A stretch of DNA of 31,829 bases from a virus, in the IMG/VR virus record IMGVR_UViG_3300029286_001115, positions 1 through 31,829 of that record. One strand, 5' to 3'. The notes beneath the pieces are model-generated. The model made no database searches. It worked only from the letters and a program-made list of their open reading frames with translations, and was not told the DNA's origin. The position numbers and the translations under genes are program-made. Position 1 is the first letter of the stretch. Every line of letters starts with the position of its first letter. Positions 7,189 through 29,503 of this stretch are shown piece by piece.

Positions 7189-7203
7189 GATTATAAGTTA
7201 CAA

Positions 7204-8796: not shown

Positions 8797-8850
8797 ATGG
8801 ATAGGATATTCGTACAAATTGCGGATATTTATTTGTATGAAGAAATGTAA
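8797..8850 (+). pseudogene. Remnant of a glycosyltransferase start, cut by an HNH gene
   Basis: An ATG directly behind the promoter opens a 17-codon frame that begins MDRIFVQIA and then runs out. The intact glycosyltransferase at 9540 begins MKETIFVQLAAYRD. The similarity of the first nine residues suggests this is the old 5' end of that gene or of a paralogue, interrupted by the HNH gene that begins at 8837. Confidence 0.5.
8825..8833 (+). promoter_or_regulatory. ATATTTATT motif before the HNH gene
   Basis: ATATTTATT ends 3 nt before the ATG at 8837, the same gap as at the RHH gene at 15358. It selects this start over the upstream alternative at 8819. Confidence 0.45.
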
Positions 8851-9538
8851 AAAATGTGAAATAGAAAAAGATTATAACGATTTCTATACGAATAAAAATG
8901 TATGTAAGAAATGTTGTAATGAAAACTCAAAAATCCATCAAAAAAAATGGAGAGAAAAAAATAGAGAAAAAATAAAATTAATCTGCAAGGAATATAGAAA
9001 AAACAATTTAGAAAAATCAAAGCAAGCCCAAAAGAAATGGTATAATGAAAATTCAGAAAAACAGAAAGTATATAGAAAAAAATATTTAGAAGATTTTCCA
9101 GAAAAAGTAAAAGAAAGTTGGGTAAAATATAGAGAAAAAAATAAAGATAAAATGAAAAAAAATAGTAAAGAATATGCAAAAAAAAATCGAACTAAAATAA
9201 ATGTATATGCTGTGAATAGAAGAAAGTCGTCCCCCATTTTAAGAATATCTCATAATGTAAGAGGAAGAATAAGAGACTTTTTGAAATCAAAAAATATGAA
9301 AAAAAATAATAAAACATTTGAAATCATTGGATGTACTCCTCAACAGTTAAAAGATCATTTAGAACAACAATTTACTGTTGGAATGTGCTGGGAAAATTAT
9401 GGTTATTATGGATGGCATATTGATCATATTATATCATTAGATTCCGGGGAAACTGAAGAAGAAATATATAAACTGTGTCATTATACAAATCTTCAACCTT
9501 TATGGTGGGAGGAAAATTTATCAAAAAGCAACAAATAA
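8837..9538 (+). CDS. HNH homing endonuclease (intact copy)
   Basis: 233 aa. The N-terminus has a zinc-binding CxxC pair (MKKCKKCEIEKDYNDFY) and a later CKKC. A very Lys-rich helical region (about 35-125) follows. The C-terminal nuclease half contains FEIIGCTPQQLKDHLEQQF, WENYGYYGWHIDHIISLDSG and LCHYTNLQPLWWEENLSKSN. The His-Ile-Asp-His and Asn-Leu-Gln-Pro-Leu are the HNH catalytic core. Two relatives are in this window (14613-15222, broken; 24287-24910). It sits between a promoter with a gene remnant and the glycosyltransferase at 9540, so it is probably a free-standing homing endonuclease inserted at a gene start. Confidence 0.85.
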   Translation: MKKCKKCEIEKDYNDFYTNKNVCKKCCNENSKIHQKKWREKNREKIKLICKEYRKNNLEKSKQAQKKWYNENSEKQKVYRKKYLEDFPEKVKESWVKYREKNKDKMKKNSKEYAKKNRTKINVYAVNRRKSSPILRISHNVRGRIRDFLKSKNMKKNNKTFEIIGCTPQQLKDHLEQQFTVGMCWENYGYYGWHIDHIISLDSGETEEEIYKLCHYTNLQPLWWEENLSKSNK

Positions 9539-9539
9539 T

Positions 9540-10796
9540 ATGAAAGAAACTATTTTTGTCCAACTGGCGGCATACCGAGACGCTGAGCTAATCCCCACAA
9601 TTAAACATATGTTGGAAAATGCTCTTCACCCAGAAAATTTAAGATTATCAATTGTTCGACAATACCATCCTGACGATAAGTTTGATGATTTATCGGAATA
9701 TGAAAATGATGAAAGATTTCGTATCGTTAATATTCCATATAACGAGGCGAAAGGCGTTTGCTGGGCTAGGAATTTAACACAAGAAGCCTACCAAGACGAA
9801 GAATATACATTACAAATAGATTCCCATATGAGGTTTATTAAACAATGGGATGAAAAGTCAATCAAAATGATAAAAGACCTTCAGAAAAAAGGTTACAAGA
9901 AACCACTTTTAACTGGGTATGTGTCTTCCTATAACCCTGAAAATGACCCAGCTGGAAGAATAACCGTTCCGTGGCGAATGGCTTTTGATAGATTTATTCC
10001 AGAGGGAGCGGTGTTCTTTCTACCTGAAACAATTCCAGGGTGGGAAGAATTAAATTCACCTGTACCATCACGATTTTACTCGGCACATTTTTGTTTTACT
10101 CTCGGGCAATTTTCAAAAGAAGTTCGGCACGATCCCGAATTTTATTTCCACGGAGAAGAGATATCGATTGCGGTTAGGGCGTTCACGCACGGGTATGATT
10201 TGTTCCATCCACATAGAATCATTTGCTGGCACGAATACACACGAAAGGGTAGAACCAAACATTGGGACGATAATAAAGATTGGGGAGAAAGAAATTCCAA
10301 ATCACATTCTAAAAATAGAAGACTATTCAGTATGGATGGTGAGGTTTACAATCCAGAAGAATTTGGTATATATGGTTTTGGAAATAAAAGAACATTAAGA
10401 GATTATGAAAAGTATGCTGGTATACTTTTTAGTCAAAGATCTGTTCAACAATATACGCTAGATAAGCACTATCCACCTAATCCGTATAATTTCGAAACTG
10501 AAGATGAATGGATGAATAGTTTTGCAAAGATATTCAAGCATTGCGTTGATGTAAATTATTCTGATGTTCCCGAAAAAGATTATGATTTCTGGGTGGTGGC
10601 ATTTCACGGTTCAGATAATGAAACCATTTATAGAAAAGATGCAGATAAATCAGAAGTTACAAGATTACTGAATGACCCAGAACACTACGCAAAAATATGG
10701 AGAGAATTTCAAACAGACAAACAACCAGCATATTGGGTGGTCTGGCCTCACAGTGAATCAAAAGGTTGGTGCAATAGATTAACTGGAAACTTATGA
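9540..10796 (+). CDS. GlcNAc-transferase-type glycosyltransferase (PF11397-like)
   Basis: 418 aa. The order IFVQLAAYRDAEL, then RIVNIPYNEAKGVCWARN, then YTLQIDSHMRF (metal-binding DxH at about 94-96) and FHGEEISIAVRAFTHGYDLFHP matches the GlcNAc-T family (PF11397), which transfers GlcNAc from UDP-GlcNAc to hydroxylated protein or to glycans. An extra C-terminal segment (about 330-418) ends YWVVWPHSESKGW. It overlaps the next gene by 4 nt (ATGA). Decoration of virion proteins or of host surface glycans is likely; the acceptor is unknown. Confidence 0.8.
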   Translation: MKETIFVQLAAYRDAELIPTIKHMLENALHPENLRLSIVRQYHPDDKFDDLSEYENDERFRIVNIPYNEAKGVCWARNLTQEAYQDEEYTLQIDSHMRFIKQWDEKSIKMIKDLQKKGYKKPLLTGYVSSYNPENDPAGRITVPWRMAFDRFIPEGAVFFLPETIPGWEELNSPVPSRFYSAHFCFTLGQFSKEVRHDPEFYFHGEEISIAVRAFTHGYDLFHPHRIICWHEYTRKGRTKHWDDNKDWGERNSKSHSKNRRLFSMDGEVYNPEEFGIYGFGNKRTLRDYEKYAGILFSQRSVQQYTLDKHYPPNPYNFETEDEWMNSFAKIFKHCVDVNYSDVPEKDYDFWVVAFHGSDNETIYRKDADKSEVTRLLNDPEHYAKIWREFQTDKQPAYWVVWPHSESKGWCNRLTGNL

Positions 10797-11557
10797 AAAA
10801 AGTAGTTTTAACATTAACAACAATACCTAATAGGTTATCGAAACCGATAGATAATGGCGTTGAAAAAGTGATAAGGTTTTTATGTAATCTATCATATGAT
10901 GATTATGAAATACATTTTAATATTCCATATGTAAATAAAAAAACTAACGAAGTGTATGAGATTCCCGATTGGCTTAGGTTACTTGATTGTTGTACATCAG
11001 AAAAATTGAAGATTTATAGAACTGAAGACTATGGTTCTTTAACCAAGCTATTACCAACAATCCAACGAATCACCAATCCAGAAACTGTTATTATAACAGT
11101 AGATGATGATTTGGAATATATAGATGGATTCATCGAAGAACATTTGAAGAAACGAGAAGTGTATCCTGACTGTGCTCTTGGCTTTGCTGGTATTGCATCT
11201 ATACCAAATGGTATTTGTCATTTCTGTACTCCCGTTAAAGAAGATACAAGAGTTAAAATACTTGAAGGGTATAAAACTATTTCTTATTTACGCAAATTCT
11301 TTCAAAGTGACTTTGAAGAATTTGCTGTTGGTAATAGTTGGAATGATGATATGATTATTTCTGCTTATTTAGGTAAGGAAAGGATTCATAAGATTGTATT
11401 AGCCTATGATAAAGAAACAGATTTCAGGGCAAGAGCCGAGTCATTTCCAGTTGTAAGAAGTTTACCAAACGATGCGGGAGGATGTTATTTATATAAAATA
11501 GAAGGGATTCCTGATAATCACGATGTCTATTATAAAGCTGGATACTTGGAACGATGA
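10793..11557 (+). CDS. Glycosyltransferase-like protein with DDD motif
   Basis: 254 aa. It begins VVLTLTTIPNRL, then YRTEDYGSLTKLLP and VIITVDDDLEY, with a metal-binding triple Asp at about 104-106, followed by GNSWNDDMIISAYL. This is a GT-A-type fold of a small family seen in surface-glycan and phage clusters. It overlaps both neighbours by 4 nt, so it is translationally coupled in the operon. The sugar donor is not deducible from the sequence. Confidence 0.7.
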   Translation: MKKVVLTLTTIPNRLSKPIDNGVEKVIRFLCNLSYDDYEIHFNIPYVNKKTNEVYEIPDWLRLLDCCTSEKLKIYRTEDYGSLTKLLPTIQRITNPETVIITVDDDLEYIDGFIEEHLKKREVYPDCALGFAGIASIPNGICHFCTPVKEDTRVKILEGYKTISYLRKFFQSDFEEFAVGNSWNDDMIISAYLGKERIHKIVLAYDKETDFRARAESFPVVRSLPNDAGGCYLYKIEGIPDNHDVYYKAGYLER

Positions 11558-12237
11558 GAAATAGAATTTACAATTCGGTTTATGATTTTCGTATCGATAA
11601 AAAATTCTGGAAAACCACTGCGTTATCTGGCCACGATCATGATGTATATAGAAGTAAGCCTGGGCCATATATAAAAAAGGAAATTGAAATAGCAAAAAAA
11701 CTTGGATTAAGAACCTTCGTTGAGATTGGGTCGTGTAGACTTGCTCTTTCAAATAACTGCATAGATTATTTTTATAATAGTTCGGATCCTTATATTTCTC
11801 CACCGTGTTGCAATGATGGGCACGCCAGTATATTTTGGGCTCTTGAGGGGTTCAATGTTCACACGGTAGACATTGACACAAATTGTTCAAAACAAATTGT
11901 TTGGTCTTTTAATAACATAAATAAACCGTTTCCAAATAATTTGGTTGCTCATATACCTATGGATGGTATTGAGTTTTTACAGAATTTCAAGGGGAGTATA
12001 GATATATTATTTCTTGATGGTTGGGATATTGGTACTCCAAATTATCAACAAAAACATTTGGATGCATATATGGCTAGCGAGGATAAGTTATCCGTCACAT
12101 ATTTAGTAATAATAGATGATACGGATTTTGACATTCCTGGCGAAGGGAAAGACGCTTTGTTGTCACCATATCTGATTAACAAAAATTATATAATGTTGTT
12201 TAATGGTAGACAAACATTATTTATTAATAAATTTTAA
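11554..12237 (+). CDS. Class I SAM-dependent methyltransferase
   Basis: 227 aa. FVEIGSCRL (about 55-63) is the glycine motif I of a Rossmann methyltransferase. VHTVDID is the acidic end of strand 2. IDILFLDGWD and YLVIIDDTDF give the later strands in the style of Methyltransf_24. Two Cys lie in PPCCNDGHAS. It probably methylates a sugar or other glycan substituent, given the glycosyltransferases on both sides. The start overlaps the previous stop (ATGA) and the stop abuts the next start. Confidence 0.7.
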   Translation: MRNRIYNSVYDFRIDKKFWKTTALSGHDHDVYRSKPGPYIKKEIEIAKKLGLRTFVEIGSCRLALSNNCIDYFYNSSDPYISPPCCNDGHASIFWALEGFNVHTVDIDTNCSKQIVWSFNNINKPFPNNLVAHIPMDGIEFLQNFKGSIDILFLDGWDIGTPNYQQKHLDAYMASEDKLSVTYLVIIDDTDFDIPGEGKDALLSPYLINKNYIMLFNGRQTLFINKF

Positions 12238-12921
12238 ATGAACAATATAAAATATTGGGACGATAATATCGTTGAGAGTTGTGTTGGCCACGAAGTTAAT
12301 GTGATGAAAATGTACTTTTTATCTAAAGGAAAAAAGAAAATAAAATATATAGATATAGGAGCTAATACTGGCAAGTATTATGATGTCTTGATAAAGAACA
12401 ATTTTGAAATAGAAAAAGTAATAATGGTTGAGCCCGCTCGGGCTCTTTTCAATTATCTGGTGGAAAAATTTAAAAATATTCCAAATTCTTTCATATACGA
12501 TTATGCTATTAGTGATTATAATGGTGATGGTAAACTAAATGTTTGGAATTTAGAATACGACACGGAAAATATTGAAAATAAACCTTTAAATAGTATAAAT
12601 TTGGGGCTTTCCAAATTATCCGATAATGGTCAAGATGTGAAACTAATATCGGGGTATAATTTTTTAAGACTGATGGGCGATGATTTTGATTTCATTAAAA
12701 TTGATACAGAAAATAGGGATTATAATATTTTATCATCAATTAACGATTACATTAAGTCGTTAAAGAATAAACCATATATCATATATGAGCACAATTATCA
12801 TAACGATATTTCATACGATGGTGCAAAATTTATTTATGAAAAATTTGTTTCTGAATGTGATTATGATGGTTTACCCTTCGATAACCTACATAGTAGTGTA
12901 TATTTAACACCTAAAAAATAA
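12238..12921 (+). CDS. FkbM-type methyltransferase
   Basis: 227 aa. YIDIGANTGKYYDVL (about 37-51), IMVEPARALFNYL, the acidic loop YAISDYNGDGKLNVW and FDFIKIDTENRDYNIL follow the FkbM (Methyltransf_21) layout: motif I, the E-P of strand 2, and the strand-5 KIDxE. FkbM enzymes O-methylate sugars and polyketides. The ATG follows the previous stop directly, with no Shine-Dalgarno, as is usual in this operon. Confidence 0.75.
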   Translation: MNNIKYWDDNIVESCVGHEVNVMKMYFLSKGKKKIKYIDIGANTGKYYDVLIKNNFEIEKVIMVEPARALFNYLVEKFKNIPNSFIYDYAISDYNGDGKLNVWNLEYDTENIENKPLNSINLGLSKLSDNGQDVKLISGYNFLRLMGDDFDFIKIDTENRDYNILSSINDYIKSLKNKPYIIYEHNYHNDISYDGAKFIYEKFVSECDYDGLPFDNLHSSVYLTPKK

Positions 12922-14616
12922 ATGGTAACAATAGTAACAGGAATTTGGGATATAAAGAGAGACGAACTGTCCGAAGGCTGGAACAGGGGATTTAATCATT
13001 ATTTAAATCATCTACAAAATTTGATGGAAACCAATGATAATATGATTATTTTCATTGAGGAAGAACATAAAGATTTTGTGGAATCACATCGTAAAAAAGA
13101 AAACACTCTCATTGTTGTTAGAGATTTATCTTGGTTTAAAAACAATGGCGACATCTACGAAAAAATACAAAAAATAAGAATACAACCAAATTGGTATAAC
13201 CAATCTGGATGGCTTCCTGAAAGTACTCAAGCCAAGCTGGATATGTACAATCCGATTGTAATGTCTAAAATGTTTTTGTTGAATGATGCTGCAATTTTAG
13301 ATCCATTTAATTCGACGCATTTGGTTTGGGTTGATGGGGCGTTAACGAACACTGTTCATAGTGGGTATTTCTGGAAAGACAACGTAATTCAAAAATTGGA
13401 AAAGTATTTTAACAAGTTTAGTTTTGTTTGTTTTCCTTATAATGGAAAGGTGGAAATACATGGGTTCGAATATTCAGGAATTTGTAAGTATGCTGGCGAT
13501 GAAGTAAATATGGTGGCTCGTGGCGGAATATTTGGTGGGCCTAAAAGTAGTATTCAAGATGTGAACAACATATATTATTCATTGTTGAATAATACGTTGT
13601 CCGAAGGATTGATGGGGACAGAAGAAAGTTTGTTCACGATTATGGTTTACAAATATCCAGAAACATTTTCGTATTATGAAATAGACGAGAATGGACTATT
13701 GGGTAAATTCTTCGAAGATTTAAAAAATGATTCATTAGAATCTAAGGTTATAACTTTAAAAAACCAACCAGCTCATCAGCCTGTAGGCATAAAAAATGAT
13801 TTAGATGTGTCCAAAGTCGGGTTATATGTCATTACATTCAATAGTCCTGACCAGTTCGAAAAATTAATTTTTTCTATGCTGGAATATGATAGAAATTTCA
13901 TTGATAAAACAAAAAAATTCTTATTGAATAATTCTACCGACTTAACAACCACGCCGAAATATGTTGAATTATGTGAAAAATATGGATTTGAGCATATAAA
14001 AAAGGATAATATTGGGATCTGTGGCGGGAGACAGTTTATCGCCGAACATTTTGATGAAACAGATTTGGATTTTTATTTCTTTTTTGAGGACGATATGGGA
14101 CTTTATTCTAAAATTGGGGAAGTGTGTAAGAATGGGTTTAATAGATATATGACAGATTTATATCAAAAGTCATTAGAAATTATTAACAAAGAAAATTTTG
14201 ATTTTTTGAAGTTATCATTTACTGAGTTTTATGGGTCTAACAACATACAATTTTCTTGGTATAATGTCCCTCAACATATTCGCACTTCTGTGTGGCCTAA
14301 TAATTGTACGCTACCCAAACAGGGATTATCCGATACTGCCCCGAGAACTAAATTTGATTCTATAAATGTTCATAAAGGGCTTGGTTATATTTCTGGTCAA
14401 ATATATTTGTCAAACTGGCCTATTATTATGAGCAAAAAAGGAAATTATAAATGCTACCTTGAAACTATCTATCAATCACCATTTGAATCGACTTTGATGA
14501 GTCATTGCTTTCAACGAACAATTAATGGTGAAATTAATCCTGGAATATTATTACTTTCACCTATAGAGCACTGTCGTTTTGATCATTATGACGGTAAAAT
14601 AAGAAAAGAAGTTTAA
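12922..14616 (+). CDS. Two-domain glycosyltransferase (HtrL/YibB-like plus GT-A-like)
   Basis: 564 aa. The N-terminal ~280 residues fit the HtrL/YibB family: VTIVTGIWDIKRDELSEGW at the start, then THLVWVDGALTNTV and MVARGGIFGG. The second half begins VGLYVITFNSPDQFEKLIFSM and includes NNSTDL, GICGGRQFIAEHF and FYFFFEDDMGL, a GT2-like nucleotide-sugar fold with an E-D-D metal site. Two activities in one chain suggest it adds successive sugars. It ends the operon and its stop overlaps by 2 nt the stop of the convergent HNH relic. Confidence 0.7.
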   Translation: MVTIVTGIWDIKRDELSEGWNRGFNHYLNHLQNLMETNDNMIIFIEEEHKDFVESHRKKENTLIVVRDLSWFKNNGDIYEKIQKIRIQPNWYNQSGWLPESTQAKLDMYNPIVMSKMFLLNDAAILDPFNSTHLVWVDGALTNTVHSGYFWKDNVIQKLEKYFNKFSFVCFPYNGKVEIHGFEYSGICKYAGDEVNMVARGGIFGGPKSSIQDVNNIYYSLLNNTLSEGLMGTEESLFTIMVYKYPETFSYYEIDENGLLGKFFEDLKNDSLESKVITLKNQPAHQPVGIKNDLDVSKVGLYVITFNSPDQFEKLIFSMLEYDRNFIDKTKKFLLNNSTDLTTTPKYVELCEKYGFEHIKKDNIGICGGRQFIAEHFDETDLDFYFFFEDDMGLYSKIGEVCKNGFNRYMTDLYQKSLEIINKENFDFLKLSFTEFYGSNNIQFSWYNVPQHIRTSVWPNNCTLPKQGLSDTAPRTKFDSINVHKGLGYISGQIYLSNWPIIMSKKGNYKCYLETIYQSPFESTLMSHCFQRTINGEINPGILLLSPIEHCRFDHYDGKIRKEV

Positions 14617-15222
14617 AGTATTTTGTTTGATTTTTCTAAATTTTCTTCCCACCATAATGGTTGAAGATTTGTATAATGGCATAATTTATATATTTCATCT
14701 TCTGTTATTCCAGAGTCTAATGGAATAATATGGTCTATATGCCATCCAAATTGTCCGTGGTTTTCCCAAGACATTCCAATTGTAAATTGTTTTTCTAAAT
14801 ATTCTTTTAACTCCTGTGGCGTACAACCAACTATTTCAAAAGTTTTATATTTTTTATTGAAAGACTTTAATTTTAAAATTTCTTTAATCCTTGCACTAAC
14901 TCTTCTTTTAATTTTATATAGGGGGGTCTGTGTGATATTTTTTTCTTCTTGTTTCATTGCGTTTTTCGTTATATTTATGATTCATATTACATATATGATG
15001 TTTATTTATTTTGTAATATGCTCGTTTATATTCCTTCAGCTCTTCGTTATTTTTATCCCTCCACATTTTATGAGAACCTGGATTATTTTTACGATATTCC
15101 TTACTTATTCTATTAACGCAAATTTTACACCAATGATGTATTCTATTATTAGTCTTGTCTTTATAGCCAAATTCATCTAAATCTTTTTCAATGCCACATT
15201 TAGTGCAGATTTTTGTTTCCAT
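14613..15222 (-). pseudogene. HNH homing endonuclease split by a frameshift at a C6 run
   Basis: Read 5' to 3' on the minus strand, the first frame (15222-14914) has METKICTKCGIEKDLDEFGY and further Cys pairs, then stops after HTDPPI. A second frame (to 14613) continues TPLYKIKRRVSARIKEIL, FEIVGCTPQELKEYLEKQF, WHIDHIIPLDSG and LCHYTNLQPLWWEENLEKSN. The two intact relatives (8837, 24287) join exactly these parts. Removing one C from the run of six at 14921-14926 restores one frame. It may be a real pseudogene, a sequencing error in a homopolymer, or (less likely) a programmed shift. It overlaps the RHH gene upstream. Confidence 0.75.
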
Positions 15223-17634: not shown

Positions 17635-17931
17635 ATGAAAGTAATAATTACTGAGAGACAATTAAAAGAATTAGTGTCAGGGATAACGTCTAAACAAATT
17701 GATGAGGCTGACGAAACTCCAGAGGATGCTGAGCCAAAATCTGGAGCATCCGATGATCAAGTTGGAGGAACTCCACCCCCACCAGGAGGAACGGAAGGTG
17801 GTTGTCCAGATACACATAAATGGGAAAGTGGCGCATCAAGAGGGCCAGATAATTTAGTTGCAAATACTAAATGGCCTTCAGCGGGTCAACAACCACAAAG
17901 AGGAGTTGCAAATCCATTATACAATTATTAA
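17635..17931 (+). CDS. Low-complexity protein with shared N-terminal leader
   Basis: 98 aa from ATG 17635. The first ~20 residues (MKVIITERQLKELVSGIT) are the recurrent leader. The rest is acidic, then Pro/Gly-rich (GGTPPPPGGTEGG), and ends ANPLYNY. No folded domain is evident. The leader attached to an otherwise disordered chain suggests the leader has a function of its own, such as sending proteins into the head. Confidence 0.65.
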   Translation: MKVIITERQLKELVSGITSKQIDEADETPEDAEPKSGASDDQVGGTPPPPGGTEGGCPDTHKWESGASRGPDNLVANTKWPSAGQQPQRGVANPLYNY

Positions 17932-17951
17932 ACAACAAAACATTCAATAGT

Positions 17952-20024
17952 ATGAGAAAAAATAGAATAAATAGAAATGTAGACGTACAGAGAATTCATT
18001 TATTAATGAATTATAACCCAGAAAAAACCTTAAATGAAAATGTTGACATCATTAATGAAGTTGACACGGGTAGATTAGGAACAGCTGTTGGAGCTGGCGT
18101 TGGTGGAGCAGCTTTAGGTGCAGGACTAGGTGCTGCGGCTACAGGTGGAATTGGAAGTATTGGAGGAGCTGCTCTTGGTTCAACTGCGGCTGCAGGTGCT
18201 GCATCCAATATCGGTATTGCTTTAGGCGCGACAAGTATGGGTGCCGCTGCCGCAATTGGTGGGGCTGTTTTAGGTGGAGCTGCGGCTTTAGCGGTTCTTC
18301 CATTGGCGTACTGGTTAATAACAAAAGACACTAACGCAGGAAAAGTTAAAAGAATTTTTAATTATTGTGTTCAAGATATTAATAAAATTAATAAGATACC
18401 AAGAAAAATAAATGACGTTGAAATTAGAAATTTATCGGATCAGTTATATGACGCAATGAGCGGTCTTGGTACTGATGAAGAAAAAGTTTATGGAGCTTTT
18501 AAATCATTAGAATCTGCATCAGATTTTTGCTCGTTAGTTGTTAGATTTAATAAAGATTATGGCGATTTATATGAATGGCTGGACGATGATTTTGACTCAC
18601 CAAGCGAATGGGAACAAATATATAGACCAATTAGAAATGTTGTTGAGGATACTTTAATGTCAATAAAAGATGATTCTGGAGGTGCAGGTGGTCCACAACC
18701 AGGTGTAGGTGGTGGTAATGGTGGTTATAAACCTTGTCCAGGTCCGACATTTACACAAGGTTGCTCTAATATAAACATACAACTATTACAAGGATGTTTA
18801 GGACTTGTCCAAGACGGAAAATTTGGTCCTAAGACATTGGCTGGCATCAAGGCTAAGATTCCAACATTTGATGGTACACTTACGCCAGAAATAATTGCCG
18901 AATTAATGAAGAATTGTAAAGGTAGCGGCGGAGCCGATGCTCCAATGACTAAAGAACTTTTTGATGCGCTGACGGCTCAGGGGAAAATAAGATACGGAAG
19001 TTTAAATGGTAGTAATGCTAAATTTTATTTTGTTCAAAAGGGGGGTATTAACGATGTTAATTTACCATCTTTAGACGCATTCTTAAAGACAAAAGGATAT
19101 GAAAAAGTGTCTGACGCTGATATGTTACAAATTGGTGGAGATGAGATGGGTGCGATGTGGTCTAATCCTAATGAGGTAAGTGCGGCAAGAGACCTTCAAA
19201 GAGTGGGAATTAGACCGCCATCGCAACAAAACACACAAATACCAAACCAAACACTATCAGAAAGGGCGTTCGCAAAATACGAGAAATCTAAATTACTTAA
19301 AGATGCAACAGTGACGGAGCAAACTAGAATGGAGCTTGGAAAACGAACAGGTGGTCTTAATCCATCTGGAAAAATTGATAATAAGTTACCTATGTGCGTT
19401 CAACAATTACCTGGCGGAAGTACAGGAATTTCTAAATTTGGTCAATATGTTAAAATACCTGAAGGTATTGATGCTCAATCGATAGGTAAAAAAGGTGTTT
19501 ATTTTTGGCAAAATGGTCAAGTTGTAACAGGTGACCGTACACTTAATGGTACATATACTTGTATTGGTGGTACGCCAGATCCAAATAGTCCATATAAAAA
19601 TATAAAAATAACTTGGAAAACTGCCCCTATTGATAATAAAGCATTAGCTGGCGGGGAAACGGCGCCAGAAACAACACCAAAAGTTGGGTATAAACCGTGT
19701 ACAAATTTCCCATTTACACAAGGATGTGTTAATGATAAAATAAAACAATTACAAACCTGTTTGGGGTTAACTCCTGACGGACATTTTGGACCTAAAACAT
19801 TGGCCTCTATAAAGGTTAAGATTCCCACCTTCGATGGTAATTTAACACAACCTATTATAGATGAACTTATGAAGGGTTGTCAAGGTGGAAATAAAAGTTC
19901 ATTAATACCGAAACCTGTCTTTAAAGATATTGAATCACCATCTTTATTAAAACCAGGCACATCAACAGACTATATGCTGGCGGGTAAAAAAACGCTGCAA
20001 GAAATGTTCAAAAAGATTATTTAA
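17952..20024 (+). CDS. Large protein: glycine zipper, annexin-like repeat, two peptidoglycan-binding domains
   Basis: 690 aa from ATG 17952; the longer frame from 17871 overlaps the previous gene. Residues ~40-120 are a Gly/Ala zipper (AVGAGVGGAALGAGLGAAAT and similar) ending AVLPLAYWLI, probably membrane-inserting. About 157-235 resembles an annexin repeat (LYDAMSGLGTDEEKVYGAF, then DLYEWLDDDF). Two PG_binding-like domains at about 258-324 and 578-644 share GYKPC, FTQGC, LQ-C-LGL, DG-FGPKTLA-IK and KIPTFDG. A Gln/Pro/Ser-rich part lies between. This is the architecture of a virion protein that binds the wall and inserts into the inner membrane. Confidence 0.7.
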   Translation: MRKNRINRNVDVQRIHLLMNYNPEKTLNENVDIINEVDTGRLGTAVGAGVGGAALGAGLGAAATGGIGSIGGAALGSTAAAGAASNIGIALGATSMGAAAAIGGAVLGGAAALAVLPLAYWLITKDTNAGKVKRIFNYCVQDINKINKIPRKINDVEIRNLSDQLYDAMSGLGTDEEKVYGAFKSLESASDFCSLVVRFNKDYGDLYEWLDDDFDSPSEWEQIYRPIRNVVEDTLMSIKDDSGGAGGPQPGVGGGNGGYKPCPGPTFTQGCSNINIQLLQGCLGLVQDGKFGPKTLAGIKAKIPTFDGTLTPEIIAELMKNCKGSGGADAPMTKELFDALTAQGKIRYGSLNGSNAKFYFVQKGGINDVNLPSLDAFLKTKGYEKVSDADMLQIGGDEMGAMWSNPNEVSAARDLQRVGIRPPSQQNTQIPNQTLSERAFAKYEKSKLLKDATVTEQTRMELGKRTGGLNPSGKIDNKLPMCVQQLPGGSTGISKFGQYVKIPEGIDAQSIGKKGVYFWQNGQVVTGDRTLNGTYTCIGGTPDPNSPYKNIKITWKTAPIDNKALAGGETAPETTPKVGYKPCTNFPFTQGCVNDKIKQLQTCLGLTPDGHFGPKTLASIKVKIPTFDGNLTQPIIDELMKGCQGGNKSSLIPKPVFKDIESPSLLKPGTSTDYMLAGKKTLQEMFKKII

Positions 20025-20140
20025 TTATTAAAGATGATAAATATATCCTATAATTTCTGATATTTATTATTGAGTTTGGCAATTTGGCCATCGTCAAATG
20101 ATAAAAGAGGAAACGAAAGGGAGGTATTTCAAAATCTAAA

Positions 20141-20173
20141 AAGTAAGGGGTTTTGAATCCCCTTATTTTTTTG
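20141..20173. terminator. Bidirectional terminator between the 690-aa gene and tmRNA
   Basis: AAGTAAGGGG pairs with CCCCTTA(T)TT around an 8-nt loop; T-runs occur on both strands. It lies 9 nt beyond the tmRNA 3' end and also stops plus-strand transcription. Confidence 0.75.
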
Positions 20174-20181: not shown

Positions 20182-20569
20182 TGGAGGCGCCGCTATTGAA
20201 AGCGGGTCTTGCTCGCCCAAACATAAACGGACTACACGCTTATTCTGTTATTCACAACAGACAAATATTTGGTTTTTATTTTTTCATCATCACCAACAAC
20301 TGTGAACGGTTCATATATAACGGGATAGAACCGTAAACACCTTCCCTTTTATGAAGAATTCTGTTGCTAGGTAATCTCTTCAGTATTCACCCCTGTAACT
20401 ACCCAAAGTTAATTAAGCTGTTACTTTAGAAGTTGCAAGTAAACCTGCAAGTTCCATTTGATTGTAAATGTTGCCGTTTAAAAGGCTACCATCATAGATT
20501 TAAGTCGTAGATGATGTCCGACTGCGTGCCCATTTATACTAGTGACGCCAATCAACACCTGTCGCCCCC
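20182..20569 (-). ncRNA. ssrA: tmRNA (ssrA), 388 nt
   Basis: The 5' end GGGGGCG pairs with CGCCTCC near the 3' end (7-bp acceptor with one G-U). GGTGTTGATTGG matches the tmRNA D-loop block GGxxTTGAYxGG. The T-arm is CCGCT/AGCGG with loop TTCAAT, one base short of normal. The mRNA-like frame ends at TAA 20413-20415. With the resume codon at GGC (20475-20473, nt 95) the tag is 20 aa, GNIYNQMELAGLLATSKVTA. A Gly resume codon is usual in Bacteroidota (GENNYALAA), but the tag is long and ends VTA. CCA is not encoded after A73. A host-type promoter and a terminator flank it. The role is rescue of stalled ribosomes. Confidence 0.88.
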
Positions 20570-20591: not shown

Positions 20592-20623
20592 CAAATATAC
20601 TAATAAATATTGGATTAACCAAC
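20592..20623 (-). promoter_or_regulatory. Host-type promoter of tmRNA
   Basis: On the minus strand GTTG (20623-20620), 20 nt, then TATATTTG (20599-20592), an exact TAnnTTTG. It would start transcription about 15-20 nt upstream of the mature 5' end, leaving a short leader for RNase P. Confidence 0.6.
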
Positions 20624-20669: not shown

Positions 20670-22172
20670 ATGAAAAACAAGAAAAACAGCGTAGTTGTGG
20701 TTTTTTCATCCCATCTTGGAGAAGAAAAGAATCAAGAATTTATCAATCACATCCACAAAACAATAGGATGTGTACACGGTGTCATTCGTTATGAGAACTA
20801 TAATGAATTTTCACTACCAGAGCTTTATAACAAAGCACTTAAAGAAAATTCAAAGGATAATACGATTATGGTATTTTGTCATCCTGACATTAAAGTTAAA
20901 ACGAAAAATTGGGGTCGTGTTCTTTTAAATCATTTTAACAATTCTGAGTATGGTATTATAGGTCTTGCTGGAACAACATATCTCGGAGCATCTGGAATGT
21001 GGTGGGAAGATAAGAAAACTATGTTTGGGATTGTTAATCATACAGATGGTGAAAGAGAGTGGGAAAGTAGATTTTCACCACCAATTCAAGGCATACAGCC
21101 AGTTGTTACAGTTGACGGTGTATTCGTTGCTGTGGATCCTGGAAAATTGGAACACGGATTCGATGAAAAATATGGTAAATTCCATTTCTACGATTTAGGG
21201 TTCTGTGTTCCTAATTATTTGGATGGCGTCGATCTTGGCGTTATTTCTTCTATTAGAATAGTTCATAGTTCAGTTGGTATAACAAATGAAGACTGGGAAG
21301 TTAATAGAATTAAATTCGCTGAAGAATATAAAGATGAACTACCTATAGCGTTGGAGCCGATTATTAAAGATATCGATATTAAATTAACTAAAGAACCGAA
21401 AGTAACTGTAATCATTCCAACAAAAAATAATTTCAATATTTTAAGAAGTAATATTGTTTCTTGGAAAACATTTGTTAAGTACAAAAATTATGAAATTTTG
21501 ATTGCAGATACTGGTAGTGACCCTGAAGTTAAAGAAAAGTATGAAGAAATAGTTGATTATAATGTGAAGGTGGTGGAATATGATTATTTCAATTTCGGTC
21601 AAATTAATAACGATATGGTTAAAAACCATACAACCGAAGAAACTGAAATTGTTTTATTCTGTAATGATGATATTAAATTGTTAAATGACGCGCTTAGCAG
21701 ATGTGTTCAGGTGTATAATGAAACAAAAAGTCCTGGAACTTTTGGTATTAGATTACATTATGAAAATGGGACTGTTCAACATAACGGGATTATCTATTTT
21801 GAAGATAAGGAAGGTAACTTACATCTCACACATAAAGACATAAGAAAATCAGACAACTACACTACGACAACTCAATATAAAACACACGGGAATACTGGTG
21901 CATTTATGTTAATCAGTAGAAAATTGTTTCTTGAACTTGGTTGTTTCAATGAAGAATATATTGAATGTTTTGAGGATGTAGAATTAAATCTTAAATGCCG
22001 GCTGAATAGAAAACAAAACATAACCGTATCCGATGCTGTGGCGTACCATTATGAATCGCTTACAAGAGATAAGGATCCAAGAAAACTCGAGAAATTAAAT
22101 CTTGATTATCAGAAAAGATTACATCCTTTCTGGAAGGAAAACAAAGAAGAGTTGAAGAAATTACTGAAGTAA
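20670..22172 (+). CDS. Two-domain glycosyltransferase, 500 aa
   Basis: The N-terminal ~225 residues (VVVVFSSHLG, NTIMVFCHPDIKVKTKNWG, VTVDGVFVAVDP, FHFYDLGFCVPNYLDG) fit the Glyco_tranf_2_5-like family (PF13712). The C-terminal half is a GT2 domain: KVTVIIPTKNN, ILIADTGSDPEV, VLFCNDDIKLLN (metal-binding N-D-D), GNTGAFMLISRKLF and CFEDVELNLKCRL, ending with the YHYES-type helix. It is probably bifunctional in glycan building, like the gene at 12922. It stands alone behind its own promoter, divergent from tmRNA, and is followed by a terminator. Confidence 0.8.
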   Translation: MKNKKNSVVVVFSSHLGEEKNQEFINHIHKTIGCVHGVIRYENYNEFSLPELYNKALKENSKDNTIMVFCHPDIKVKTKNWGRVLLNHFNNSEYGIIGLAGTTYLGASGMWWEDKKTMFGIVNHTDGEREWESRFSPPIQGIQPVVTVDGVFVAVDPGKLEHGFDEKYGKFHFYDLGFCVPNYLDGVDLGVISSIRIVHSSVGITNEDWEVNRIKFAEEYKDELPIALEPIIKDIDIKLTKEPKVTVIIPTKNNFNILRSNIVSWKTFVKYKNYEILIADTGSDPEVKEKYEEIVDYNVKVVEYDYFNFGQINNDMVKNHTTEETEIVLFCNDDIKLLNDALSRCVQVYNETKSPGTFGIRLHYENGTVQHNGIIYFEDKEGNLHLTHKDIRKSDNYTTTTQYKTHGNTGAFMLISRKLFLELGCFNEEYIECFEDVELNLKCRLNRKQNITVSDAVAYHYESLTRDKDPRKLEKLNLDYQKRLHPFWKENKEELKKLLK

Positions 22173-22632: not shown

Positions 22633-22664
22633 TAAATATACACAATAAATGACAAAAAGTCAAC
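22633..22664 (-). promoter_or_regulatory. Host-type promoter reading away from the CCA enzyme gene
   Basis: On the minus strand GTTG (22664-22661), 20 nt, TATATTTA (22640-22633), with the TTGTGTATATT block shared with the TerD and 8752 promoters. It overlaps the first codons of the gene at 22649. Confidence 0.5.
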
Positions 22665-24115
22665 TTTTATTTGAATCTACCGAAGAAGAAGTTTTAAAAT
22701 TTTTACAGAATCTTATTAAAGGTACTGAATGGGATAATAAAGTCTTCTTGGCTGGCGGTGCTGTGCGCGATGAAATTATGGGGAAACCACCAAAGGACTT
22801 GGATTTTGTCATTACGGGTGATATCGATGCTGGTATTAATTTTGCAACTTGGTTAACAAAACAACTTGGAAATTACAAGCCAGAAAGTAATCCTGTTATA
22901 TACCCACTATATGGAACGGCAAAGATATCGTTAGGTTATAGTAAATACAATTTACCGAGTATTGATTTAGAATTTGTTGCTCCAAGAAAAGAAAAATATA
23001 GTACAGGATCCCGCAAGCCAAAAGTAAGTGGCGGGCAGTTAATTGATGATGTAATGAGAAGGGATTTAACCATCAATTCATTACTAAAGAACATATCAAC
23101 AGGTGAAATATTGGACCTCACGGGTAAAGGAATAGAAGACATTAAGAATGGTCTTATTAGAACCCCTGCCGACCCAAGTATTATATTTAAAGATGATCCT
23201 TTAAGAATGTTAAGGGCGATACGATTTGCCGTTAAATATGATTTTAAATTTACTGACGAACTCATTAAGTATATCAAAAAATATTCTAGTTGGATTAAGA
23301 TAATTTCTCACGAAAGAATAAAAGATGAATTAAATAAAATTTTAGTATCACCAAAACCTGATGCTGGAATTCGATTATTAAAGATTACTGGATTATTAGA
23401 TTATGTCATTGAAGAATTCAATGAGACATTTGGAATGAAACAAAATAAACATCACAAAGAAGATGTCTTCAAGCATACGATGTCGGTATTGGCCAAAACC
23501 CCCCCAGACCTTAAAACAAGACTTATGGCGCTGTTTCACGACATAGGTAAGGTATTGACCCGAACGGTCACTCCGGATGGTTCTGTACATTTCTATGGAC
23601 ACGAGAAGGCTAGCGAGGATATGGTAAGAAATATTATGTCCCGACTTAAATATCCTGGTGATTTAATAGATGCGGTTGCTAAAGGTGTGAGCCATCATAT
23701 GTCTTTAAAACACGGGGCAGATGACGCTTCACAATTAAGCGATAAGTCGTTAAGAAAATTTACATCTGTGGTCGGTAACAACTTAACGAACATTTTAGAC
23801 CTGATTCACGCTGATAATATATCTCACGCTAATGAATCTGCTATGCCCAATCAAATAGAACTCGTTAGACAGCGTATAGAACGATTAAACACACAGATTG
23901 ATAATAGTAATAATAAGTTACCTATCAATGGTGATGATTTAATTAAGATGGGGTTAAAACCCTCTAAATTGTTCAAGGATATACTCACCGCAGTGCAGGA
24001 CGCTTGGTATGAAAACCCTAATATCACAAGGGAAGAAGCTCTGGATATTGCTAACAGAATTAGACTTCAGAGTAATATTACCGAAATTAAAAATTTAATG
24101 GGAAAAATGTTATAA
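22649..24115 (+). CDS. cca: CCA-adding tRNA nucleotidyltransferase with HD domain
   Basis: 488 aa. Class II head: VFLAGGAVRDEIMGKPPKDLDFVI (about 32-55) holds the G-G-x-x-R-D and D-x-D catalytic motif. RRDLTINSL (137-145) and DDPLRMLRAIRF (182-193) are the base-recognition and neck motifs. A C-terminal HD phosphohydrolase region has FHDIGK (296-301) and later HH. The length is that of the HD-containing family. It adds or repairs the 3' CCA of tRNAs. The tmRNA and tRNA-like RNAs here do not encode CCA, so the gene has an obvious partner set. The first residues (MTKSQLLFESTEEEVLKFLQ) slightly resemble the shared leader. Confidence 0.88.
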   Translation: MTKSQLLFESTEEEVLKFLQNLIKGTEWDNKVFLAGGAVRDEIMGKPPKDLDFVITGDIDAGINFATWLTKQLGNYKPESNPVIYPLYGTAKISLGYSKYNLPSIDLEFVAPRKEKYSTGSRKPKVSGGQLIDDVMRRDLTINSLLKNISTGEILDLTGKGIEDIKNGLIRTPADPSIIFKDDPLRMLRAIRFAVKYDFKFTDELIKYIKKYSSWIKIISHERIKDELNKILVSPKPDAGIRLLKITGLLDYVIEEFNETFGMKQNKHHKEDVFKHTMSVLAKTPPDLKTRLMALFHDIGKVLTRTVTPDGSVHFYGHEKASEDMVRNIMSRLKYPGDLIDAVAKGVSHHMSLKHGADDASQLSDKSLRKFTSVVGNNLTNILDLIHADNISHANESAMPNQIELVRQRIERLNTQIDNSNNKLPINGDDLIKMGLKPSKLFKDILTAVQDAWYENPNITREEALDIANRIRLQSNITEIKNLMGKML

Positions 24116-24153: not shown

Positions 24154-24306
24154 ATGAAACCAAGAAAAAAAGAAGATCAAAAAAAAGTGAAAATATCCAT
24201 CACTTTAAATCCAGAAATTAATAAAAGATTGGAAAATGAACTTATTAATAAGTCTCGTTTAATAGAAAAACTAATCATTGAATATTATGGTCAGAAAGAT
24301 ATGTAG
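24154..24306 (+). CDS. Ribbon-helix-helix partner of the second HNH gene
   Basis: 50 aa: MKPRKKEDQKKVKISITL, then NPEINKRLENELINKSRLIE and KLIIEYYGQKDM. Minimal RHH fold with a basic N-terminus; a relative of the protein at 15200-15358 (shared SRLIEKL and EYYG). Its last 20 nt overlap the HNH start in another frame, so the two are translationally coupled. It probably binds DNA at or near the insertion site or its own promoter. Confidence 0.72.
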   Translation: MKPRKKEDQKKVKISITLNPEINKRLENELINKSRLIEKLIIEYYGQKDM

Positions 24307-24910
24307 TAAATGCAAACTAGAAAAAGATATAACAGATTTTTATAAAAGATTGGATAGAAAATGCGGGACAAAAAGCCAATGTAAAGTATGTGATAATAGT
24401 AATTCTATAAAATGGAAGGAAAATAATTCAGAAAGAAAAAAAGTTTATGACAAAAAATATAAAGAAAATAATCCTGATAAAATAAAAAAGACTCAACAAA
24501 TTTCGAGTCGAAAATATTATTATAAAAATAAATCTAAAATTAATTATTCAAAAAAAGAAAGATTAAAACTCGATGTTATTTTTAAAATTAAAAATTCAGT
24601 TAGAAGTAGAATTAGAGGGTTTTTAAAGAAAAAAAACATTCAAAAGAATAACAGCACATTTAATATTATTGGTTGCTCGCCAGAATATTTAAAACAATAT
24701 TTGGAAGAAAAATTTACACATAGAATGTCATGGGAAAATTATGGATTTTATGGATGGCATATAGATCATATAATTTCATTGGATAATGGAAAAACGGAGG
24801 ATGAAATTTATAAATTATGCCATTATACAAATTTACAACCGTTGTGGTGCGACGATAATTGGGCAAAATCTAATAAAAATAATCAAATTGCTTTCAGGAT
24901 TGAATCTTAA
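24287..24910 (+). CDS. HNH homing endonuclease (second intact copy)
   Basis: 207 aa from ATG 24287 (MVRKICSKCKLEKDITDFYK); the frame to 24278 needs a TTG start. N-terminal CxxC and CKVC zinc site, Lys-rich helical middle, FNIIGCSPEYLKQYLEEKF, WENYGFYGWHIDHIISLDNG, LCHYTNLQPLWCDDNWAKSN. HNH core residues are intact. It is the counterpart of the frameshifted copy at 14613-15222, with the same RHH gene in front, and it sits just after the CCA-enzyme gene. The free-standing position suggests homing into intergenic sites. Confidence 0.85.
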   Translation: MVRKICSKCKLEKDITDFYKRLDRKCGTKSQCKVCDNSNSIKWKENNSERKKVYDKKYKENNPDKIKKTQQISSRKYYYKNKSKINYSKKERLKLDVIFKIKNSVRSRIRGFLKKKNIQKNNSTFNIIGCSPEYLKQYLEEKFTHRMSWENYGFYGWHIDHIISLDNGKTEDEIYKLCHYTNLQPLWCDDNWAKSNKNNQIAFRIES

Positions 24911-25574: not shown

Positions 25575-25644
25575 TGTTGTTTGTTTTTGTTGTTAATTAT
25601 TTATTTGTTTAATCATTACCCCAACTGGGGCAATTCGTTTAAAG

Positions 25645-25781
25645 TGGGGAAGGGAGGAATCGGACCCCCGACACGCAGTTTTACAAGTTAGAAGTATCTT
25701 AATATATAGCCGATTGATTTTAATTTCACAGAAATCATAAAAGAATAACGGACTACTGCTCTACCACTGAGCTACTTCCCC
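25645..25781 (-). tRNA. tRNA-like gene interrupted in the anticodon loop by an array element
   Basis: 137 nt. Acceptor GGGGAAG/CTTCCCC (7 bp perfect), TA, D-arm GCTC/GAGC with AGTGGTA, A26, T-arm GGGGG/CCTCC with loop TCCGATT and variable GTGTC are all canonical. Anticodon stem GTAGT/ACTGC (one U-G) encloses about 72 nt instead of 7. If the join leaves C32 followed by TGTAAA, the loop is CTGTAAA, that of tRNA-Tyr(GUA), but the short variable region is unlike bacterial tRNA-Tyr. The extra ~65 nt contain one complete GGCTAT...TACTTCT element (25690-25711). It may be an unknown small intron, an insertion, or a tRNA mimic. CCA not encoded. Confidence 0.55.
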
Positions 25782-26685: not shown

Positions 26686-27333
26686 TTATATATATTTAAA
26701 CTTAAATCCTTTATATGTTTTACATCCTTTAATACCATTACAAAGTTTAGATAAGTCACCACGATTTATTTTTAACTCTTTAGAACAATCACCAACAGAA
26801 TCAAAAACTTTTATTAAATTATCGTCCAAATCCATCTGAAGTATTTTTTTCTTTTTTTTATTAATGTAATTTTTATACCCGTTAGAATTTATTCGAGACG
26901 TAATCGTTTTTTCTGTTTGTTTTTGACCCTTTGTTCGTTGATTTCCGATTAATGATATTCTTATTTTTTCTTTAGTAGTTTCTAAGTGTCTGCGGTTTTT
27001 TCTACTTTCACTTAGTTTTTTTATAGTTTCTGTTTTACAAATTCTACCAAAACTACTATTAGATTTTTTCTGAATGTTATATAAGTTTTTAATATTATCT
27101 ATAAACCATTGTTCCAACATTAAACAATATTCTTTAGGACATTTCGCTAAAACCTTAAACTCAAAAGATGATTCACCATATTTATTCCACGATTTTTGTA
27201 GGTGCTCATTAGTGTGTATATTTCTTCTTAAATAAGATAAATGGTTTAATTTTCTCGTTTTTAAGTTATTTGCGCTTCCTACATACGATTTACCATTAAT
27301 TTTATTTAATATTTGATACACGCCAGAGTTCAT
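26686..27333 (-). CDS. GIY-YIG homing endonuclease
   Basis: 215 aa. SGVYQILNKINGKSYVGSANNLKTRKLNH has the GIY (here G-V-Y) and YIG (Y-V-G) strands and the catalytic Arg. The catalytic Glu follows in LMLEQWFIDNI. The C-terminal half is basic with NUMOD-type DNA-binding motifs (ESRKNRRH, then ILQMDLDDNLIKVFDSV, ELKINRGDLSKLCNG). It starts 9 nt after the TerD stop, and its stop lies 2 nt before the last array copy. It is probably a mobile intruder that split a TerD-RNA transcription unit. Confidence 0.85.
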   Translation of the reverse strand: MNSGVYQILNKINGKSYVGSANNLKTRKLNHLSYLRRNIHTNEHLQKSWNKYGESSFEFKVLAKCPKEYCLMLEQWFIDNIKNLYNIQKKSNSSFGRICKTETIKKLSESRKNRRHLETTKEKIRISLIGNQRTKGQKQTEKTITSRINSNGYKNYINKKKKKILQMDLDDNLIKVFDSVGDCSKELKINRGDLSKLCNGIKGCKTYKGFKFKYI

Positions 27334-27341: not shown

Positions 27342-29423
27342 TTATACCCCCATATAAATACCTGTCTTTTCATATGATTCGGAAAAATCTTCATACTTGA
27401 AATAAGTATCAACATTTTGATCCAAAGTCACTTGTTTTCCTCTCGCTTCAACATGTAAGAGTACTAAATCGTAGACACTTACCTTCGGCAGCTTCGTGAA
27501 TTCTTCTACCATCTTGATAGTATTCTTCACATCACCACTTGCAACTACTGAACCTGAAGAATCAATATCCAACATAATGTATTCCTTTGTAATCAAGTCA
27601 ATGATTGCAATTAATGTGTTGTTTGATTCTGAATCCAGAGTCTGGCAGGTTGTTATGGTTTCAGGTAGCCAAGTTTTGTTACATTCTGGGTGTTCCCTTT
27701 CCATTATACCAAACCTTGTTTCCACGGTTTGTAATCCCCTGCCGTTGAAGTTTCTCACATCGATGACAGCGTATAAGAAACCATTTTTGATGGCGTCATT
27801 CATATCGATGTCAACATATTCAGCACAAGCCCCCTTTCTTTGTCTCACATCACCAGAGTGAACTGAATTACCAACTCTGTAGTTGTGGAAGTTAAGAACT
27901 TCATTCCTTTTACCAACAAAGGTAACGCTTAAGTCCAAGTCTTCTCTTCCATTCTTATCCATCCAATGAACGAATGGTCTGATAACCTTTGCGTCAGGGT
28001 TGTTTAATGGAACTCTTTGACCAGTAATTTTAGGTTTGGTTGAGAAACTTGCGTTCCTCTTTGTTCCCATCCCGATTGGTAACGGAATTTTCTTCAATTC
28101 CGGGTCAATCCAACAATTTCCAAGTGCAGGAAGAGTAGTGAATTTTTCCTTCAGGGTTTCGAACAACCTGCTATGAATTCCTTCAACAAGTTTTCCTGGA
28201 AGTGCAGTTAAAGATGGTAATTGTGTTGGTTTTCTTGCTCCTTTAACCTTGATGAACCTGTTAGTGTTCGGTTCTAACCTTCCTTCGAAATGTGAATACA
28301 CTTCAAACAGAACCTTATTTGATGTACCCTTCAGAACTTCAGTTAAGAAGTTCATAATAAGTATAAGGTCTTTTGGATATGTACGAACCAACCAGTCAAT
28401 CCTTCTTGAAAATTCCCCTGGCCTTTGTGATAGAATCTTCAAACCAGTTTCCAAATCTTTCCTGAACCCATCGTTAAGTTGGGCGTACCAAGACTTAACT
28501 TTTTCATTCCTGATTTTGTGGAAAGCAGAAGCAGTTTTTGGATATTGTGCTTTGTATTCTGCCGGGTGAAGAATTTCGCCTAAACGAACCCATCTTTGAT
28601 CCTTCAGAACCATTTCTTTTGGATCACAGTTGGTGTTTTCCAATAGGCCCATCAGATACTTTCTTTCCTTACGAGAAAATTTCTTGAATTTGAATTTTTC
28701 CCTTGCAGGGTTATCACTTTTTGACCTACTCCATCTGCTAAGTCTTACCTTAGCGAAAGGAACTTTCGGTAAACTGATATCCCCGCCAGAAAGGTGTACG
28801 GCAATCCTCAACACATCGGTTGGGGTCTTCACTGGCAATCCTTCGATTCCCATTGCTGCCAATGTACAAAGGTTTTCTTTGAATGGAATCTGTGCAGGGA
28901 AGACCAATTTTTCACCACTTGATGCGAACCATCTTACGATAGCTAAATCTTGTGGCGCCAAACTCTGGTTGATTGAAACCAAATCCGTGAAGATTCTTGC
29001 GAACCTTTCGGGTGTGGCGTACCCAATCATAGTGTACTTAATCTTTTCGAATTTGATTGGTTTTTCATATTCAACCGTTGACGGTTCCCAAGTACCATTA
29101 CTCCAGTAGTGAATGATGGCGTTCAGATAGAATTCGAAATCTGTTAACGACATTACTTCCTGTGGGAAATTTTTGTACAATGGTGTAAAGTTGTGTTTTC
29201 CACCCATCACATCTTTCAAATATTCGATAACCTCGTTATTAAAAGGTTCGATGAAAGATAAATCTGATTTTGATAATTCTGTGAAGGCGTCTTGGTCTAA
29301 CATATATCCCCATTGCATTAAGTGGGATTGAACGGTCGCTACTGCGATTCTGTTATCCATTCCATCGTGTGACGGAGTAACCAAGCCTTTTTGAAGAGCG
29401 ATGATGTTTTTTGTCAGCTTCAT
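27342..29423 (-). CDS. Large protein with C-terminal TerD-like domain
   Basis: 693 aa from ATG 29423; the frame to 29483 runs into the promoter. The N-terminal ~480 residues are helical, with phrases such as TPTDVLRIAVHLSGGDISLP, WVRLGEILHPAEY and ILSQRPGEFSRRIDWLV that suggest repeated helical hairpins. The C-terminal ~200 residues read DLDLSVTFVGKRNE, NSVHSGDVRQRKG and YVDIDM, the order of a TerD beta-sandwich. The later DIDSSGSVVASG is probably part of this domain rather than a vWA metal site. TerD domains bind calcium and belong to stress and defence systems. Here it heads a unit with an RNA array. Function in the phage is unknown. Confidence 0.65.
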   Translation of the reverse strand: MKLTKNIIALQKGLVTPSHDGMDNRIAVATVQSHLMQWGYMLDQDAFTELSKSDLSFIEPFNNEVIEYLKDVMGGKHNFTPLYKNFPQEVMSLTDFEFYLNAIIHYWSNGTWEPSTVEYEKPIKFEKIKYTMIGYATPERFARIFTDLVSINQSLAPQDLAIVRWFASSGEKLVFPAQIPFKENLCTLAAMGIEGLPVKTPTDVLRIAVHLSGGDISLPKVPFAKVRLSRWSRSKSDNPAREKFKFKKFSRKERKYLMGLLENTNCDPKEMVLKDQRWVRLGEILHPAEYKAQYPKTASAFHKIRNEKVKSWYAQLNDGFRKDLETGLKILSQRPGEFSRRIDWLVRTYPKDLILIMNFLTEVLKGTSNKVLFEVYSHFEGRLEPNTNRFIKVKGARKPTQLPSLTALPGKLVEGIHSRLFETLKEKFTTLPALGNCWIDPELKKIPLPIGMGTKRNASFSTKPKITGQRVPLNNPDAKVIRPFVHWMDKNGREDLDLSVTFVGKRNEVLNFHNYRVGNSVHSGDVRQRKGACAEYVDIDMNDAIKNGFLYAVIDVRNFNGRGLQTVETRFGIMEREHPECNKTWLPETITTCQTLDSESNNTLIAIIDLITKEYIMLDIDSSGSVVASGDVKNTIKMVEEFTKLPKVSVYDLVLLHVEARGKQVTLDQNVDTYFKYEDFSESYEKTGIYMGV

Positions 29424-29472
29424 GTTGTCAGTTTTTGTGGTTAAAAAATGTTTTATTAAAAATGTTGTGTGG

Positions 29473-29503
29473 AAAATATACACAAAATTTTTCTAAAGTC
29501 AAG
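29473..29503 (-). promoter_or_regulatory. Promoter of the TerD-RNA unit
   Basis: On the minus strand CTTG, a 19-nt spacer and TATATTTT (29480-29473), preceded by TTTTGTG as in the 8752 promoter. TTGACT with TATATT 16 nt apart is also a fair sigma70-type pair. The leader before ATG 29423 is about 45 nt. Confidence 0.55.

Follow-up and report, generated by a model that had tools for sequence, protein, structure and literature searches.

Phage-borne ssrA genes have been described in mycobacteriophages and in Bacillus phage G (PMC4131195), and tmRNA together with SmpB has already been published for huge phages (Al-Shayeb 2020, PMC7162821). The flavobacterial phage Calle, a 73-kb podovirus infecting Bacteroidota, encodes one tmRNA along with many tRNAs (PMC8776804). 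Tags are most often 10 aa long (PMC11915505), and a hydrophobic terminal residue is usual (PMC4131195). As to why tmRNA occurs in phages, the lineage described below offers a concrete and testable answer: a phage tag, a phage unfoldase, and a phage peptidase, found across many viral contigs.

We analyzed a 31,829-nt viral contig (IMG/VR record IMGVR_UViG_3300029286_001115; hereafter “the window”, i.e., the whole stretch of DNA analyzed). An initial annotation had placed a tmRNA at positions 20182–20569, and a covariance search bore this out: read from 20569 to 20182 on the minus strand, the locus matched the one-piece tmRNA model RF00023 over model positions 1–374 with 57.8 bits, above the gathering score of 47 (cmscan), and the acceptor, D-loop block, and tag frame are all present. 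The features of the locus and two genes used in the analysis below are, in window coordinates:

20182–20569, minus strand: ssrA gene, one-piece tmRNA, 388 nt including the discriminator A (complement of T at 20182); cmscan with RF00023
20563–20569, minus strand: 5' acceptor strand GGGGGCG, 7 of 7 pairs with 20183–20189
20183–20189, minus strand: 3' acceptor strand CGCCTCC, from sequence and pair counts
20190–20205, minus strand: T-arm CCGCT-TTCAAT-AGCGG with a 6-nt loop; 5-bp stem intact, two pairs inverted relative to the family consensus
20483–20522, minus strand: pseudoknot PK1 region (GTCG...CGAC, CATCAT...ATGATG), from the Rfam alignment; stem-2 pairs covary in the family
20413–20475, minus strand: tag reading frame GGC...TAA, encoding GNIYNQMELAGLLATSKVTA and a stop; frame kept in 75 of 76 relatives, codons 1–12 differing mostly at third positions
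20592–20599, minus strand: Bacteroidota-type -7 promoter box TATATTTG (TAnnTTTG), with TTGG at 20622–20619, spacing 19
20139–20172, no strand assigned: terminator-like hairpin AAGGGG...CCCCTT flanked on either side by T-runs, read from the sequence
22649–24115, plus strand: CCA-adding enzyme (tRNA nucleotidyltransferase); Pfam PolyA_pol, PolyA_pol_RNAbd, and HD; phrog_2244
27342–29483, minus strand: lineage marker protein phrog_33734, 73–74% identical over ~690 aa in relatives L015, L083, L082, L038, L036, and L008

The seven acceptor pairs (GGGGGCG/CGCCTCC) include the alanine identity pair G3-U70, and the D-loop block reads GGTGTTGA. At the 3' end, the discriminator A is followed by CTT, i.e., CCA is not encoded, which fits the presence in the window of a CCA-adding enzyme that could complete the end missing from the gene. 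The T-loop had been described as one base short, and TTCAAT, which fits the TTCRA consensus of such loops, indeed has 6 nt instead of the usual 7; the deviation is one of size, with the arm and its 5-bp stem retained, and the same 6-nt loop occurs in 6 of 76 family genes, the other 70 having 7 nt. Downstream, the terminator-like hairpin sits between ssrA and a convergent gene (17871–20024).

This gene is easily overlooked. ARAGORN did not call a tmRNA at 20182–20569 with default settings and returned only noise in the window with relaxed ones. Rfam with fast filters, run on the whole window, likewise overlooked the ssrA gene, as did an RF00023 search of the window's own record, whose sole match was a tRNA at 25642–25781. 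With the window gene missed by ARAGORN and just 8 of 21 tag residues called in a relative (L002, see below), it is clear that some phage tmRNAs escape tmRNA finders run with default settings.

At 25644–25781 (minus strand), within the span of this match, lies a tRNA-like RNA of ~125–138 nt, with acceptor, D-, and T-arms and a long insert in the anticodon arm, which Rfam identifies merely as tRNA. It has counterparts in relatives L036 (8306–8436), L083 (6328–6457), L015 (complement of 4743–4870), L009 (4101–4224), L084, L311, and L313. The core of the insert (ATTTCYG...YGGCTA...TACTWCT) is kept in nine distinct copies, and the “anticodon” assigned by ARAGORN varies (Tyr, Gln, Ala, Ser). Instead of a tRNA with an intron, it may represent a conserved, functionally uncharacterized RNA.

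Next, we placed the window tmRNA among its relatives. Through the neighboring CCA-adding enzyme (65% identity) we reached L002, whose tmRNA scored 80.4 bits and carries the tag GNVYRSMEVAGLLATSEVAVA. A search pattern built from the conserved 3' part AATAARCGTGTAGTC and a T-loop downstream was then found in at least 119 viral contigs, several of them >300 kb. We extracted 76 distinct genes, 75 of which carry 20–22-aa tags with a common motif; being bound to the search pattern, this sample describes one lineage and not all phage tmRNAs. The window tmRNA belongs to this large and distinct viral lineage. Among 59 family representatives, G3-U70 was found in 58 and the discriminator A in 57 (acceptor pairs counted from the ends). 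RNAalifold predicted 46 pairs for the same 59 sequences, with compensatory changes in 32 (kinship among sequences not factored in), and both the P2 helix and PK1 of the family are backed by covariation. Two sets of compensatory changes are specific to the window: a C-G at P2 column pair 50/414, where the 58 others have T-A or T-G, and the two inverted pairs of the T-stem. The L002 homologue, the 75 of 76 relatives with 20–22-aa tags in the same frame, and the covarying helices confirm that the locus is a real tmRNA and not a chance match.

Outside viruses, a scan of ~85,000 species genomes of bacteria and archaea with the same 3' pattern yielded 27 matches, all of which failed the check for a tmRNA; a bacterial reservoir of the family is hence unsupported at the stringency of this pattern. 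A blastn comparison of the window tmRNA and two family members against INPHARED phages recovered short chance matches but no tmRNA, and the 717-aa protein neighboring ssrA had no relatives among viral contigs. Promoter boxes of the Bacteroidota type (TAnnTTTG) occurred ≤70 nt upstream of 69 of the 76 family genes, compared to 10% in shuffled sequence, and based on this promoter type the phages of this lineage probably infect Bacteroidota. The tag had been described as unlike the short type of such hosts, and this held in our sample: while the window tag has 20 aa, ARAGORN tags from Bacteroidota were 9–10 aa in all 31 called, out of 33 loci that are mostly the best-scoring ones of 148 genomes, so that rarer tags may be missed.

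The reading of a 20-aa tag ending in VTA from a Gly resume codon stands as well. From GGC at 20475–20473 the frame encodes GNIYNQMELAGLLATSKVTA (20 aa) and closes with TAA at 20415–20413. Across the 75 family genes, tags have 20 aa in 19 cases, 21 aa in 50, and 22 aa in 6, and follow a common plan: Gly or Asp comes first, followed mostly by Asn; position 4 is aromatic or aliphatic, position 7 is Met or Leu, position 11 is an invariant Gly, and the end is nonpolar and rich in Ala. The last residue is Ala in 72 of 75 tags (ends AVA in 23, VAA in 23, VVA in 7, and VTA in 2). The window's VTA is a minor variant of VAA; its tag ends in -SKVTA, the family form being ...SKVAA. With its conserved small, nonpolar, and Ala-terminated tail, the family thus conforms to the usual tag type (PMC4131195).

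Codon-level variation supports this frame. Between related sequences, differences in codons 1–12 numbered 1421 at the first codon position, 530 at the second, and 1962 at the third; the corresponding counts for the 12 nt preceding the resume codon were 880, 955, and 585; in genes with an identical tag peptide, variation was almost wholly at third positions. No alternative frame giving a normal tag emerged, the objection that the initial annotation had itself raised: the other two frames contain stops in 58 and 62 of 66 relatives, and codons 1–12 are under coding constraint. For the same reason, we rejected the L002 tag called by ARAGORN (ATSEVAVA, 8 of 21 residues), since the codons 1–12 that lie upstream of it show this constraint. 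A later resume codon was rejected also because GGC sits where the Rfam model and host tmRNAs begin their tags: measured from the 5' end, the resume codon of the phages lies at 90–97 nt and that of host tmRNAs at 90–103 nt (ARAGORN).

We then examined which partners of the tmRNA are encoded in the lineage. A Clp ATPase was found in 23 of the 28 records bearing a family tmRNA. For one of these proteins, from L044, the best match among solved structures was ClpC, starting at ClpC residue 143. Two Walker A motifs were present in all 23 ATPases and the [IV]GF ClpP loop could be read in 22, the anchor having fallen elsewhere in the twenty-third. Given the match from residue 143 and the short leaders with which the 23 proteins start before D1, the N-terminal domain is absent, and Pfam found no N-domain match in the relatives' Clp ATPase. 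Since D1, D2, and the ClpP-docking loop are present while the N-domain is missing, this unfoldase is ClpC-like and not a full ClpC. The N-domain is the adaptor-binding part of ClpC, and its loss points to the ClpC pore as a possible direct reader of the tag. A probable ClpP was encoded in 10 of 19 records (18 with a family tmRNA plus the window). The copies read keep the GMAASMGS and LHQ.SGG active-site stretches, and the best models were Clp proteolytic subunit families, at 207 bits and below curated cut-offs, compared to 73 bits for a head-maturation model. SmpB, passing equivalog cut-offs, was detected in 4 of the same 19 records, G004 and G005 among them; many of the relatives searched are fragments. 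None of clpC, clpP, and smpB was found in the 31.8-kb window, and all three are absent from the record of its closest relative, a 55-kb fragment.

Wherever clpC and ssrA share one stretch, clpC is located 5' of ssrA, either 3–6 kb or 22–28 kb away. The shorter spacing characterizes one group of tag classes and the longer one the window's own class, GNVY. For G004 and G005, likewise GNVY members, the linear distance is ~285 kb, or ~25 kb if the genome is circular. In G014 and G015, smpB is ~0.6 kb from ssrA. A reciprocal search from one phage ClpC, into which the linkage was not built, returned 80 loci at 69–100% identity, and a family tmRNA lay 2–6 kb downstream of clpC in all 48 loci with ≥6 kb of downstream sequence; these loci are mutually related and so not phylogenetically independent. 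All 64 tmRNAs found beside clpC were on the same strand. Such linkage can also reflect a common expression class instead of a common pathway. In the megaphage LR756502.1, the best INPHARED match for ClpC, Rfam detected no tmRNA within 20 kb of the ClpC gene; LR745206.1 was checked for tmRNA by the family profile only. The LR756502.1 megaphage carries a GOLLD RNA (L229 14013–14419, 275 bits) ~6 kb from its ClpC gene.

The window is tied to this ssrA- and clpC-bearing lineage by the marker gene at 27342–29483, which it has in common with clpC-bearing relatives: the records of L008, L015, and L082 carry clpC, and that of L015 also clpP and smpB. Extrapolating from the layout of the relatives, the clpC of the window phage would be expected near coordinate 43–49 kb, beyond the end of the 31.8-kb contig, and its clpP would likewise lie beyond the contig ends.

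Taken together, we consider it reasonably probable that these phages run a trans-translation system of their own, with the long tag serving as a degron for the ClpC-ClpP that they themselves encode. The ssrA of the window would then be functional, as part of a distinct viral lineage of tmRNAs carried by large phages, with its product charged with alanine via G3-U70. With SmpB, phage-encoded in some relatives and otherwise supplied by the host, the charged tmRNA would enter ribosomes stalled on broken mRNAs and add the 20-aa tail to the stalled protein. This long tail, with its small, Ala-terminated end, would act as a phage-specific degron, so that the N-domain-less phage ClpC would unfold the tagged proteins and, with phage ClpP, destroy them. 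Ribosomes and amino acids would thereby be recycled during infection, on the phage's terms. More tentatively, the system might be self-contained and orthogonal: the N-domain-less phage ClpC, together with ClpP, might be the main reader of the 20–22-aa tag, which host proteases would recognize poorly. In that case the phage would control which unfinished host or viral proteins are destroyed during infection; we see this as possible but doubtful.

Other explanations have to be weighed against tag-directed degradation by a phage protease. The initial annotation had suggested that the tail could escape host tail-specific or ClpXP proteolysis: the tag would rescue ribosomes while being invisible to host proteases, and stalled phage proteins would be set free and survive. 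The tag does differ in length and sequence from the 9–10-aa tags of Bacteroidota, and ends in -SKVTA and not in -ALAA. Yet throughout the family the tag ends in small, nonpolar residues with a final Ala (72 of 75), and the lineage carries a probable clpP (10 of 19 records) as well as a clpC linked to ssrA (23 of 28 records and 48 of 48 loci); these patterns disfavor the proposal, and we regard release and survival as improbable, though the tag may resist host ClpXP or Tsp. Because the lineage has its own Clp unfoldase tightly linked to ssrA, and in about half of the records searched a probable ClpP, degradation by the phage protease is favored.

It is also rather unlikely, if somewhat less so, that this is an ordinary phage copy providing extra rescue capacity, with products degraded by host ClpXP and a tag length without special meaning. 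In its favor, huge phages are known to carry tmRNA with SmpB (PMC7162821), and ssrA was reported in 402 of 18,146 phage genomes (PMC9004378), but a tag about twice the host length that is nonetheless conserved as a peptide across a divergent family, and an ssrA tightly linked to phage clpC, speak against a mere copy. Least plausible, to the point that we give it very little credence, is that the tmRNA has degenerated or acts as a decoy, binding SmpB and so blocking trans-translation by the host, similar to the RNA of mycobacteriophage DS6A, in which a tRNA-like domain alone inhibits tmRNA (PMC4131195). While the short T-loop, the lack of an encoded CCA, and the modest Rfam score could be seen as signs of decay, the window RNA retains a full-length mRNA-like domain with a conserved tag frame, has acquired window-specific compensatory pairs, and is accompanied by a CCA enzyme encoded nearby.

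The window and its relatives display several further features. Four small homing-endonuclease-like proteins are encoded at 8819–9538, 14613–14957, 24278–24910, and 26686–27333, three of them mutually similar and HNH-like and one GIY-YIG-like (by eye); some such genes intervene between ssrA and the genes that neighbor ssrA in relatives. An IMP dehydrogenase / GMP reductase gene lies at 7232–8338 on the minus strand (Pfam PF00478, 333 bits), and probable glycosyltransferase genes form a cluster with related ones at 9540–14616, 20670–22172, and 30016–31245, stretches that also encode a B12-binding radical SAM protein. The 55-kb relative L002 has >20 clustered tRNA genes (497–8425). Stop codons of 37 selected ORFs in the window were TAA in 31 cases, TGA in 6, and TAG in none, and tRNAs with a CTA anticodon occur in relatives L002 (13261–13331) and L083 (1238–1310). 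Full amber recoding of the phage was considered and is unsupported: past their likely starts, the long ORFs of the window are free of internal TAG.

Neither a family of such long tags nor a linkage of clpC with ssrA was reported in the open-access literature searched, so that their novelty is provisional. If the favored reading of a phage-run system is true, phages run their own tag-and-destroy quality control, and the tag represents a novel degron read by a dedicated partner.

Compared to known systems, the window RNA has the G3-U70 acceptor, D-loop block, T-arm, long P2, PK1, and resume codon ~95 nt from the 5' end of the one-piece tmRNAs described by RF00023, but differs in the 20–22-aa tag of its family, in its own 6-nt T-loop, and in being missed by default ARAGORN. 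As for the huge phages of Al-Shayeb 2020 (PMC7162821), these are large phages with ssrA and, in some relatives, smpB, whereas Clp is unmentioned in the main text of that study. The tmRNAs of mycobacteriophages and Bacillus phage G (PMC4131195) belong to phages of other hosts, and blastn gave no match of the window tmRNA to INPHARED phage tmRNAs. Phage Calle (PMC8776804) is alike in being a Bacteroidota phage with a tmRNA, but differs as a 73-kb podovirus. Finally, the relatives' ATPase differs from ClpC (e.g., PDB 6em8) in having no N-terminal domain, the match beginning at residue 143, and otherwise aligns end to end with its D1-M-D2, including both Walker A motifs and the [IV]GF loop.
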